Source of the DNA: Apostichopus japonicus
Taxonomy: Eukaryota > Echinodermata > Holothuroidea > Aspidochirotida > Stichopodidae
Assembly: GCF_037975245.1 (NCBI RefSeq)
Contig: NC_092578.1
Span: forward strand, 16,622,821 to 16,686,820
Length of the DNA stretch: 64,000 nt
Reading direction: 5' to 3'
Part shown: in pieces, positions 23,315 to 53,877 of the stretch
How the letters are laid out: each line of letters begins with the position of its first letter
How positions within the stretch are numbered: the first letter of the stretch is position 1
Program-made: the position numbers and the translations under genes
The notes under the pieces: model-generated
Told to the model about the DNA's origin: nothing
Seen by the model: only the letters and a program-made list of their open reading frames with translations
The model's database searches: none

Positions 23315-23330
23315 ATGGAGAACCAGAACG
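23315..23330 (+). CDS. Gene A exon 1 (16 nt)
   Basis: ATG GAG AAC CAG AAC G, followed by donor GTAATT: MENQN plus one base. It is too short for ORF finding but is conserved in position and phase in B and C. Confidence 0.85.
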
Positions 23331-26300
23331 GTAATTTCCTTTTACAAGTTTTATTAACAATTTAAGTTTTTGTATTTGTCTTGTACGCATTGGATAAGCG
23401 TTAATTGTGAGTTTTTAACCTGTTTTCTCAATGACATAAACGTTACTACGTTAGAGTAACTAGAGTCGGCCTACAGTATTAGTAACGTAAGGCTAGTACT
23501 AGTAGTAGTAGTAATAGACCTAGCCTAGTACTAAATACCTTAACTGAACATTGCTATGTTAGTGTTATGATGCACCACTAATATGTGACTAACACAAGTA
23601 GACTACTGAATAATACGTTCATAGTTATCAGTGAAGTTGTTTGATGTATCTGTGCCCAAACAGGATCAATCATGAGTGACTTGGGTATCAATTCTCTTTC
23701 AAATGGACTGATGATAGGTTACTACTACTACTACATTTGATAACACTGTTGATAACATTTGTTATCATTTGATGTTGATGTTGATAACATTTGATAACAC
23801 TGTTGATAACGTGACACACCTCCGGGCGTCACAATACACAGTCACTATGTAAGGGGACTGGGGTTGAGGCCTAGAAATCTCTCATCATGTGCTAGTCCTT
23901 GGTCTAGAACTAGGCTACCAAGTTTACTATGCAGAAGATTTTCAAAGAACACACATGACATAAAGGGACAAATTAATTTAATAAAAACAACATTTCATGA
24001 ATTACAATTAATTGTAATTCATGAAATGTTGTTTTTATTAAATTAATTTCCTAGATCAATTAAACACAATGCCATTCACCTGCTGGTTCTGTGTTCGTTA
24101 GCAAATGGTAGTAGGAAGCAGTGTGAGATGACTGTTATTAACCAAAGTATAGCAGCTCAGCCAAATCTGACAAAATCACCAATGATATCTTTTAAATAGT
24201 TTTGATTTAAGAAGATATGATGAATTCGTTAAGCAGATTTGACCGGTATACCTGGTCACCAAACAGGTTAACTAACTTATGATACTGTATTGTGAAGCTC
24301 ATCACATATCCTTTTGAAAGCAAATTTCTGAAAACATACAAATAATCCATTGTTTTTCTAAATTTTGTTTCTAAGAAACAAATACTACATAAAACCTCAT
24401 GGACCAAAACTGCATAATATGACATTTAGACAGTTGTGAAAGATAAATGTACTCTAACTTTAAAGGCATTGAAGACTCGCCCCAAACCGCGTTTGGCCAT
24501 CTGAAAAAGTTAACTTTCCATTGCTTGCAAGTGAGTTTTGTTCGTGTCGCTACAAAATGCAGACAGTACAGTAATGAAACGTGATACCTTGTTATCTTTA
24601 GCTGGACCTGAGATGTCCATTGCTGTATTGTTTGTACACTGTGCTGTGGGTATTGACCGCAGCTGTATGTACTGACTAGTATACACTAGTGTCTAATTAC
24701 CGATGGTAGCAAGCTGTGTGTATGTATTTTCTGCGATTGATGGTAGTGTCTAACACTTCTATTACACCTCATTCCAAACTAAGTCAGATTACCGGCATTA
24801 GACGTTTCTCTTTGGGCGAGTCTTCACACCTCATATACCTTTGTTTAGTATGTAACCCTAAATTTACACAACAGTACCTCTATCTATTTAACATCTGTGT
24901 GCATGCCTCATAAAGATCCTGTAGCTTTGTTGGATGTTATTTGAACAAATGAATGTTTTTTCCCCTCCTTTTTTCCCCTAGCCAATGAAGCAAAGGTTCA
25001 TTTGATTGATAACCAAGAACCCTATCAGGATGAACCTCCACAGTACGATACTGAGGTAAATAGAAAAAAGTTGTCTAATATTTTCAATCCATTCTTGCTA
25101 TGTAATTATAGAATTTATTCCAGCCTTATTTCCATGGTTTTATGACACTCAGGCCACCAAAAGCAAATTTGATGTTACACCCCTCATGTTTGATATCATT
25201 CCTTGCCCTATATCACACCCTCCCCTTACCAATAACGAGTTGTTGACATATTTTGTGAATGTTGATAATTTCACCAATTTATTACGACCCAAGTAAGTCA
25301 TACAGTGAATTGAGGTCTATATCTAATAGCAAGTTGTAAACTAATATGACCCTTAATTTAGGAACAGTTTCCATAATTTGAGTTGTACAAAATTTGTAAA
25401 GAATGGGTGGACATAAGTGCAACATAAATTAAGTCTTTGGTAAAACAGAATGGTTATGTGGAATAGATATGTTGTAGTGTGTACCTTGCACAGTACTTTA
25501 TTGTTCTTGCCAAGTGACAAATTTGAGTCCAAAATTAAACTTTTGATACATGGTTCAGAACTTCAGACTACTAAGTAAAGACCATTTAGCACAAAGTTCC
25601 TTCATTCTAGGTTAGATCCTTAGTTTTGAGAAAATGACACATTAAACGATCGGTGGCCTATCGGTTCAATTGATTGGACCAGGGGTTGTATAGTTAGTTT
25701 CTCAGAAACTAAGACACTTCATCAATAGAAATACAATAGGCTTGTATAGCCATTAGTATGTAGACAAAGAATTACATAGTCATCAAGGCCAAAACGGTGT
25801 GAAACAAATTTCTCCCCGTAATCTTGCCATTTTCACTTTTTTTTCTTTCCATAGGGGTCCTTTCCTGCTCAACAGGTGATGATCCGACAACCACCATTGA
25901 CAGATCCGCCAAGGGATTATTTCGCTGAGGCCATCTTGGTGACAATTTGCTGTTTCTGGCCGACTGGCATCGTTGCTATCATCAAAGCATCGGAAGTAAG
26001 TTAAAAGAGTAACATGATGATATAATATCGATTGGCTCATAGATGAATGGGTCACCAGAAGTCTGTCGTTGGCATACTTGTGATTATCAAAGACATTGGA
26101 CTTAACCAGACAAGGCTCTAAAATATGACTATGTGTACTATATTTTGAGCTATTACCTATTAGGCCTGAGTCTTGTACCTCGGATACCCCGGTACCCGAC
26201 CCAACGTTTGGGTACCCGATTCGAAAACGCACAAATGGGTACCTGTTTTCTGAGGGAAAAGTCATGTAACTGCTACGCGAGTGCTTTCATGATTTCAATA

Positions 26301-53100: not shown

Positions 53101-53877
53101 TATTTTACTAATAATGTGGGATATTTTCGAAATTCTTGAACATTTTGACGAATCGGGGACCTTTTCGGGGACACTTGTTCATCGGGGACAGCACACTGTA
53201 ATCGGGGACTCTGTTCACCTTACTCTACCAACATATCAGACAGTATGGTGACATATACTTACCTGAAAACGAGAGAGTAATGTCAGAGATGTTATTTCGG
53301 AGATCCTGCTACAGTCAAAAACTTTACTTTTGGGCAACTATGCCCTCTATCTCCCTAGTCTGATATCACATCATATTATTTTGGTGGGGGGGGGGGGGGG
53401 GGTTGTGCCCGTTACATATGCTTTGCATAGGCCTTGTCGTGAGTGTGTTACTTGGGGATTGCTTCCTCTTGCGTCCGCATGAAGCAAACTATTTGAAGGT
53501 TTTGCAACCCTGGCTGAGAGATCCTGCAGCAAATCTGAAATGAACATTCTATGAACAAAGATGTCTGTAAATTAGCTTGATTGAAATTAGGTCATTAGTT
53601 TGTACATTGCTAAAATTGCAGCAAAACAGTTGATCTTATACAAAATGCTGGCTTTGCTGAATTTCTTACCAATTTGTCTTTTTCCTCTCACCTCCAGGTT
53701 GCTCGGGCTGTCAGTATTGGGGATTGGGACAGGGCTGAATGGGGCTCCGCCTCAGCTCGCAGGTGTGTGTGCGCGTCCTTTTGGACAGGATTGGTTATCA
53801 ACCTGGTAATGGCCATATATGTTGTGATCTTTGACCCGAAAATAGTGCACGAATGGGTAGATGAAATGTTACCATGA
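44174..53877 (+). CDS. CD225/dispanin family (IFITM-like) membrane protein, gene C
   Basis: Exons 44174-44189, 45884-45957, 49535-49672 and 53698-53877 (135 aa), GT-AG with the same phases as A and B. The tail has PPQY at 24-27. CD225 core: [20 protein letters not shown] with Cys 62-63, then loop [25 protein letters not shown] and a final helix of about 20 residues. The C-terminal tail [15 protein letters not shown] is longer and more acidic than in A and B. Exon 3 is one codon shorter, and exons 3 and 4 are strongly diverged, so this is the older paralogue. Its introns have grown by insertions, including a LINE, DR1 repeats and hAT-like elements, but the reading frame is intact. Confidence 0.9.
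44690..45260. repeat. DR1-bearing tandem repeat array, gene C intron 1 (about 4 units)
   Basis: Units of about 135-145 bp share TTGATGTGTAGAAGTACCAC, GAGGTCAAAGGTCATTTG and TGTGAAAACCTTGTAAACAC. AGGTCAAAGGTCA occurs at 44758 and 45038, and AGTTCAAAGGTCA at 44893. A decayed fourth lies near 45179. A and B lack the array. Confidence 0.9.
45884..45957 (+). CDS. Gene C exon 2 (PPxY exon)
   Basis: 74 nt: [20 protein letters not shown], then QYDTE. All five base differences from gene A change an amino acid. Confidence 0.88.
46126..46508. mobile_element. hAT-type MITE in gene C intron 2
   Basis: CACCCTCC flanks it at 46118-46125 and 46509-46516. The left end is CAGTAGCGGAGCGTCC; the right, on minus, is the more decayed CGATGGCAGGGCTAAGG. 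Genes A and B have the empty site. Confidence 0.78.
46660..49098. other. 2.4-kb stretch in gene C intron 2 absent from A and B
   Basis: A and B run directly across this point. No clear terminal repeats, coding domain or known family was recognised. Short open frames at 48465-48917 match nothing I know. It may be an unidentified insertion or several. Confidence 0.5.
49535..49672 (+). CDS. Gene C exon 3
   Basis: 46 codons: [20 protein letters not shown], then [20 protein letters not shown]. Acceptor CATAG; donor GTAAGT. Confidence 0.92.
49673..51229. other. Gene C intron 3, 5' part
   Basis: The first 250 bp are homologous to A and B and include the empty hAT site TTACCTAT at 49833-49840. The rest, to the LINE, is AT-rich with no recognised feature. 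Confidence 0.55.
51230..52657 (+). mobile_element. Broken LINE (CR1/jockey-like), reverse transcriptase region
   Basis: Translated pieces in several frames give ordered reverse-transcriptase motifs: [52 protein letters not shown] and [12 protein letters not shown]. The catalytic FADD is FADE here. At least four frame changes or stops interrupt it (for example a TGA near 51625), and the 5' part including any endonuclease is missing. The 3' end is a short ACTAA microsatellite. It lies in gene C intron 3, sense strand. Confidence 0.9.
52788..53222. mobile_element. hAT-like element (TAAGGTGACC ends), gene C intron 3
   Basis: Perfect 8-bp duplication CTCTACCA at 52780-52787 and 53223-53230. Left end TAAGGTGACCATATTT; right, on minus, TAAGGTGAACAGAG. 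CGGGGAC motifs recur near the right end. Same family as 21683-22289. Confidence 0.85.
53386..53402 (+). repeat. 17-base G run in gene C intron 3
   Basis: Uninterrupted G tract, about 300 bp before exon 4. It could form a quadruplex in RNA; no other meaning was seen. Confidence 0.9.
53698..53877 (+). CDS. Gene C exon 4
   Basis: 59 codons plus [43 protein letters not shown] and so on. The acceptor is CTCCAG. Confidence 0.92.
   Translation, partial: VARAVSIGDWDRAEWGSASARRCVCASFWTGLVINLVMAIYVVIFDPKIVHEWVDEMLP

Follow-up and report, generated by a model that had tools for sequence, protein, structure and literature searches.

A tandem trio of CD225/dispanin genes in Apostichopus japonicus that resembles the PRRT1/SynDIG4 type

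Results

Three tandem genes on the forward strand

The window analysed here is a 64,000-nucleotide (nt) stretch of the Apostichopus japonicus genome (RefSeq assembly GCF_037975245.1, contig NC_092578.1, positions 16,622,821 to 16,686,820), which contains a trio of tandem genes whose predicted products carry the CD225 domain. These genes, g1 (23315-28199), g2 (32888-37698) and g3 (44174-53877), encode proteins of 133, 133 and 135 residues, respectively. The original prediction, made from the sequence alone, described three intact four-exon genes over this span with common exon phases, a 16-nt first exon and a PPxY motif, and all of these properties were seen again when the exons were re-read from the DNA. 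Every frame is unbroken, GT and AG bound all nine introns, and the intron phases are 1, 0 and 0 in each gene. Exons 1 and 2 measure 16 and 74 nt throughout, with exon 3 at 141, 141 and 138 nt and exon 4 at 171, 171 and 180 nt in g1, g2 and g3. We infer the four-exon splicing from the sequence and from homology between the copies. The exons, with the evidence that places them, are as follows.

23315..23330, forward strand: g1 exon 1 (16 nt, MENQN plus 1 nt); ATG and GT donor
24982..25055, forward strand: g1 exon 2 (PPQY exon; probable conversion tract in common with g3); AG/GT sites and three-way site counts
25855..25995, forward strand: g1 exon 3 (first hydrophobic segment, C62 C63); splice sites and CD225 match
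28029..28199, forward strand: g1 exon 4 (CD225 loop, second hydrophobic segment, stop); splice sites and CD225 match
32888..32903, forward strand: g2 exon 1 (16 nt); splice sites
34794..34867, forward strand: g2 exon 2 (PPQY exon); splice sites
35678..35818, forward strand: g2 exon 3; splice sites and CD225 match
37528..37698, forward strand: g2 exon 4; splice sites
44174..44189, forward strand: g3 exon 1 (16 nt, ATGCAGAACCAGTACG); alignment to g1 and g2, splice sites
45884..45957, forward strand: g3 exon 2 (PPQY exon); splice sites
49535..49672, forward strand: g3 exon 3; splice sites and CD225 match
53698..53877, forward strand: g3 exon 4, stop TGA; splice sites

In all three proteins the PPxY motif reads PPQY and occupies residues 24-27, encoded by exon 2. 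The first hydrophobic segment comes from exon 3; the loop and the second such segment, with the stop, belong to exon 4. A cysteine pair had also been placed at residues 62-63. This numbering is correct for each protein, but the g3 pair lies one alignment column later (VTICCFWP in g1 vs VTFFCCWP in g3), the numbers agreeing because g3 exon 3 is one codon shorter, so that a single Cys is equivalent across the trio (g1 C63 = g3 C62).

Membership of the CD225/dispanin family

The Pfam CD225 profile (PF04505, curated cut-off 27.1 bits) matches g1 at 74.7 bits (6.5e-21), g2 at 73.3 bits (1.7e-20) and g3 at 62.7 bits (3.4e-17). This profile search had been proposed as a check on the predicted family, and all three proteins lie far above the cut-off. 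The dispanin motifs listed in PMC3282796 comprise G-D, A-x(6)-A, a first-segment Cys with an Asp before it and a splice site in the loop; g1 has G85 D86, A90/A97, C63, D51 and the phase-0 intron 3, and g2 and g3 have matching columns. The loop intron is described in the same paper as present in nearly all eukaryotic dispanins. Together with the tandem duplication described below, these features support the trio as new, tandemly expanded members of the known CD225/dispanin family, as predicted.

Residues 5-99 of g1 also give a sub-threshold match to Pfam Herpes_UL56 (18.5 bits, cut-off 25), absent from g2 and g3, which perhaps arises from the PPxY and the hydrophobic composition.

Scores, phylogeny and exon pattern

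Among proteins of known structure in the PDB set, the best match for g1 is PRRT1/SynDIG4 (9zks chain M; E 5.2e-20), aligned over 76 residues without gaps at 51% identity. The trio scores 82.4 (g1), 75.5 (g2) and 48.5 (g3) bits against PRRT1 and 19.2, 21.2 and 24.3 bits, in the same order, against a provisional, hand-entered IFITM3 sequence. When the provisional IFITM3 domain was the query, no dispanin was found in the PDB set at E values up to 10. Against 26 distinct proteins of the dispanin array described below, which lies on a different contig (C16) of the same genome, g1 reaches at most 78.2 bits, with a median of 63.5.

We built a midpoint-rooted tree of the domain from 31 rows and 81 columns, in which PRRT1 was the sole non-IFITM vertebrate dispanin (PRRT2, SynDIG1, TMEM91, TMEM233 and TRARG1 lay outside the comparison) and IFITM3 was again the provisional sequence. 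All three genes group with PRRT1 at 96/89, under a warning from the tool that long-branch joins of this kind may be false. The neighbour group of the trio plus PRRT1 consists of 23 C16 rows (80/81), with three C16 rows outside it; IFITM3 joins one outlying C16 row at 90/89, where its own long branch means that the join may likewise be false. A phylogeny with IFITM and PRRT dispanins had been suggested with the original prediction, and the part of it obtained here places the trio with PRRT1, albeit with long branches and among a narrower set of dispanins.

Exon structure bears on the same question. According to Sallman Almen et al. (PMC3282796), vertebrate DSPA and DSPB genes consist of two exons, DSPC/DSPD1 have a further exon at the N-terminal end, and invertebrate dispanins are more like C and D. 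Our models have four coding exons per gene, against the two-exon rule for vertebrate DSPA, and by the rules of that paper the combination of a loop intron with N-terminal introns fits C/D. Taken together, the scores, the tree, the motif in the first segment and the number of exons indicate a resemblance to the PRRT1/SynDIG4 type (dispanin D) and not to the IFITM subfamily, which leaves "IFITM-like" unsuited as a subfamily label for these genes.

Functional residues in the trio

In IFITM3 and PRRT2, an R-SNARE-like central Arg is placed ahead of the first Gly of a GxxxG motif, six residues before it in the published description (IFITM3 R85, G91 and G95; PRRT2 R295 and G305; PMC11730294, PMC7665892). 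The IFITM3 substitutions R85Q and G95L are reported to cause near-total loss of anti-influenza virus activity and weaker STX7 binding (PMC11730294; PMC7665892). The equivalents of R85 are Q79 in g1, Q79 in g2 and A78 in g3, and those of G95 are M89, I89 and R88; both the basic centre and GxxxG are lost in all three proteins. PMC4532365 describes the PPxY of IFITM3 as a NEDD4 recruitment site; it overlaps a YxxPhi motif. No overlapping YxxPhi occurs at the PPQY tyrosine of any of the three (YDTE in g1, YAPQ in g2, YDTE in g3). A third palmitoylation site of IFITM3, C105, lies 14 residues after G91 (PMC6907390); the residue at this distance is K in g1 and g2 and R in g3, so no Cys stands there, though C99 of g3 adjoins it.

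A dispanin array on contig C16, and bacterial CD225 proteins

We searched the 671.6-Mb assembly (35 contigs, with the trio on contig C18) with the CD225 profile at E 0.001, using a tool whose counts are lower bounds. At least 73 exon matches were recovered. Four are on C18, namely exon 3 of g1, g2 and g3 plus the fourth exon of g1, and the other 69 are on C16. The C16 set comprises 34 exon-3-like and 35 exon-4-like matches, of which 29 of each are paired and five and six, respectively, stand alone, giving up to about 40 loci. The region from 17.8 to 20.4 Mb holds 31 of the 34 exon-3 matches; the others include matches at 4.18 and 7.54 Mb.

Residues were counted in the 29 C16 genes for which both exons were read. 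Over the domain 26 of these are distinct, and the remaining, identical copies may reflect either genuine recent duplication or redundancy in the assembly; an in-frame stop occurs in one gene. GxxxG is kept in all 29, and the centre residue is basic in 28 (R in 19, K in nine, with G in the last). In the first segment, FC replaces CC in 14 of the 29 (one further gene was not read by the script). Upstream, a PPPY open frame was judged plausible in seven of 19 stretches scanned, six of the seven with YPPQQG-like repeats, and the other PPxY matches in the scan looked incidental. The loci L026, L010/L011 and L031 (C16 4.18, 7.54 and 20.35 Mb) encode three CCCLP dispanins that the tree places outside the main array.

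Among bacterial proteins we sampled the best 80 of at least 471 CD225 loci, 70 of which were readable by script. GxxxG is present in 58 of the 80 (the 10 unread loci lack G-D at this position, and GxxxG is absent from the stretch printed), and the centre residue is E in 36 and N in 19 of the 70 read (55/70). As GxxxG is widespread, in the C16 array as in bacteria, its loss in the trio is probably derived; the basic centre is not universal.

Duplication, probable conversion and constraint

Self-BLAST of the window identified the following segments.

22293..31048, forward strand: first copy of a segmental duplication in tandem, with g1 inside it; aligns to 31856-40670 in five blocks of 95.3-96.7% identity
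31856..40670, forward strand: second copy, holding g2
24822..25224, forward strand: g1 stretch, exon 2 plus flanks, 96% identical to g3 45723-46126; its ends may be indels and not conversion limits

The two copies of the duplication are each about 8.8 kb long and start 9.6 kb apart, in keeping with the tandem growth that had been predicted. Outside the exons, g1 and g2 differ at 139 of 6500 columns (2.1%) over 7.3 kb; their exons differ at 1/16 (exon 1), 19/74 (exon 2), 4/141 (exon 3) and 12/171 (exon 4) positions. Judged by these comparisons, the g1/g2 duplication is recent and g3 is much older. Sites unique to g3, g2 and g1 number 36, 0 and 1 around exon 1, 59, 1 and 4 around exon 3, and 69, 7 and 3 in exon 4. 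In exon 2 the pattern is reversed, at 4, 18 and 1.

The PPxY exon of g1 therefore looks to have been overwritten from g3, probably by gene conversion, with both direction and mechanism read from the site patterns. A single g3-to-g1 event would explain both the closeness of g1 to g3 and the distance of g2 in exon 2; the reverse direction would have left g1 and g2 matching there, and they differ. We also considered a faster g2 lineage combined with a slow g3 exon 2, an account that needs two causes. A DNA search of the animal's own genome for another donor of g2 exon 2 returned g2 itself and g1, and nothing else. The intron-2 flank is similar in all three genes (g1-g2 8, g1-g3 2 and g2-g3 6 differences of 167), which conversion alone does not explain, and three sequences alone cannot prove conversion. 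More broadly, the g3-g1 distance varies in patches along the locus.

Over the whole coding sequence (CDS), constraint is weak and no pair shows a sign of positive selection. The g1 and g3 CDS differ at about 126 sites, and when 126 random changes were made to the g1 CDS in a neutral simulation, it stayed free of stops in 2.6% of 4000 runs. Splice sites are intact throughout the trio and coding indels preserve the frame. Between g1 and g2, exon 4 carries more differences than the 2.1% of non-exon sequence would give (12/171, binomial 3.5e-4), with a nonsynonymous rate (dN) of 0.081 and a synonymous rate (dS) of 0.059; as the 3' untranslated region (UTR) is similarly diverged (8/109), amino-acid change is not singled out. 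Exon-specific positive selection was also considered for g3 exons 3-4 and g2 exon 2, which diverge faster than nearby introns. There dS is raised too (0.44-0.90), so selection on amino acids is not needed.

Other features of the window

Intron 1 of g1 (23970-24049) and intron 1 of g2 (33540-33619) carry the same perfect palindrome of 80 nt, made of two 40-nt arms with no spacer between them. Intron 1 of g3 contains a 135-bp tandem repeat (44694-45226), with related units at 56677-57181, and its intron 3 contains broken reverse transcriptase pieces at 51258-52549 (RVT_1, 1.1e-6 and 2.1e-6, just below cut-off; by eye not of the long terminal repeat class, that is, non-LTR). Outside the genes, a 30-bp tandem repeat at 12424-13439 runs to 34 copies and is open in several frames. 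Two tRNA-like Rfam matches, at 16207-16280 (31.6 bits) and 54313-54385 (30.4 bits), lie just above cut-off and may be the heads of short interspersed nuclear elements; ARAGORN reads the first as tRNA-Thr(CGT).

Discussion

Probable trafficking proteins of the PRRT1/SynDIG4 type

From sequence and analogy, we favour, at a probability of roughly 0.6, a reading of the trio as small PRRT1/SynDIG4-type (dispanin D) trafficking proteins that are probably palmitoylated and subject to PPxY-dependent turnover. The N-terminus would lie in the cytosol. Of the two hydrophobic segments, the first would be re-entrant and held in place by palmitoylated Cys and the second would cross the membrane, with a cytosolic loop between them. 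By analogy with PRRT1/SynDIG4, the latter an endosomal AMPA-receptor auxiliary protein sorted by AP-2 according to PMC11798926, the proteins would move membrane cargo between the plasma membrane and endosomes, while a NEDD4-family WW-domain ligase, recruited through the PPQY of the N-terminus, would set their lysosomal turnover. The cluster itself probably arose by duplication of an older gene, the recent tandem duplication that produced g1 and g2, and g3-to-g1 conversion over the PPxY exon. With both determinants lost, the trio probably does not use the IFITM3 route of GxxxG oligomerisation and R-SNARE mimicry.

Several observations weigh against this reading. In the tree the main C16 array is not distant from the trio and PRRT1 but directly adjoins their group (92/94), and g3 scores higher against its best C16 protein (63.5 bits) than against PRRT1 (48.5 bits). 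The g3 branch is very long, at 2.33, within the reach of the tool's warning about false joins. Assignment to dispanin D as opposed to C or B is tentative, since PRRT1 was the only non-IFITM vertebrate dispanin compared. YxxPhi, the type of AP-2 signal used by SynDIG4, is absent from the N-termini of g1 and g3, g2 having a formal match in YQDV at 20-23. The PRRT1/SynDIG4 type is expected to have a cytosolic N-terminus that is long and rich in proline, with 217 residues ahead of the match in 9zks_M; that of the trio is short, at 46-47 residues before CD225. Coding constraint is weak, with dN/dS of 0.76 (g1-g2), 0.63 (g1-g3) and 0.64 (g2-g3) and one-sided P values for N<S of 0.36, 0.021 and 0.029, respectively.

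Alternative explanations

The original prediction suggested antiviral defence, which in its fullest form would make the trio IFITM3-like restriction factors that stiffen endosomal membranes and prevent fusion of viruses, their number having grown in an arms race. We consider this unlikely. In common with IFITMs the trio has the CD225 domain, a Cys pair, PPxY and tandem growth, the g1-g2 divergence excess in exon 4 would suit an arms race, and mycobacterial CD225 proteins are reported to restrict influenza virus moderately in human cells (PMC4488726). However, IFITM3 activity needs both R85 and G95 (PMC11730294; G95 also PMC7665892), the equivalents of which are missing from all three proteins, as is YxxPhi at the PPxY tyrosine, so that antiviral defence finds no support in the anatomy of these proteins. 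Moreover, in no pair does N exceed S across the CDS, and the exon 4 differences come with a 3' UTR that has diverged to a similar extent. An antiviral role of the trio is possible, though unsupported, since the mycobacterial proteins and an IFITM5 without intact GxxxG retain some activity (PMC4488726; PMC7665892), and it would need a mechanism other than that of IFITM3.

A more doubtful proposal is that of a derived dispanin lineage that dropped the R-SNARE centre and GxxxG, kept the invariant Cys and PPxY, had its PPxY exon reshuffled by conversion, and might now serve as a palmitoylated ligase adaptor or a regulator of the C16 array. We also regard as improbable that the proteins are PPxY membrane adaptors by which NEDD4-family ligases reach other cargo, or dominant-negative partners that pair with C16 dispanins and blunt their oligomers. 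Retention of PPQY and the invariant Cys alongside the loss of both other determinants would fit such a role, as would the GxxxG kept by every C16 protein read, but loss of GxxxG in the trio may equally weaken pairing. It is very improbable that the genes are recent duplicates under little constraint and heading for decay, for although the dN/dS of 0.63-0.76, the long g3 branch and the loss of GxxxG, frequent even among the bacterial loci sampled, would agree with this, all three have intact frames and splice sites with in-frame coding indels, and the neutral simulation seldom spares the g1 frame at the g1-g3 distance.

Significance

The trio is of interest for having lost both functional determinants and for the contrast that it forms with the large C16 array. 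It shows how easily CD225 genes can be mislabelled as antiviral IFITM. Within one genome, proteins without the R-SNARE and GxxxG residues stand against up to some 40 array loci, where GxxxG is retained in all 29 genes read and a basic centre in 28 of them, a natural contrast that could test the roles of these residues outside vertebrates and any viral link of invertebrate dispanin expansions. We found no paper on CD225 in echinoderms in the open-licence literature, which does not show such arrays to be undescribed, and nothing on topic among open-licence titles for invertebrate and CD225/IFITM combined. The sole invertebrate inventory among the matches listed reports 10 IFITM/dispanin proteins in Aplysia (PMC9334734); a Hydra paper among them mentions CD225 once.

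Comparison with known systems

With PRRT1, g1 and g2 have in common the CCFWPTGI motif and the 21 residues from Cys to GD. The trio also has N-terminal exon(s) ahead of the two domain exons, following the rule in PMC3282796. It differs in the residue six before the loop Gly (R in PRRT1; Q, Q and A in g1, g2 and g3), in the sequence at the loop Gly (GDLVS vs GDRDM, GDRDI and GDWDR) and in being a tandem triplicate.

IFITM3 is similar in length to the trio proteins. With IFITM3/DSPA the trio has in common the CD225 domain, adjacent Cys, PPxY and a tandem cluster (PMC3282796, PMC4532365), whereas 18 residues separate C72 and G91 of IFITM3 (PMC6907390, PMC7665892), compared with 21 in g1 and g2. 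In the C16 array, a loop intron interrupts CD225 at the position it has in the trio, but the N-terminus is proline-rich and identity to g1 is 34-43% (five aligned rows). Bacterial CD225 proteins have the domain in common with the trio, and the Cys placement in the FFCCWP of g3 is like that of the bacterial FCCLP.

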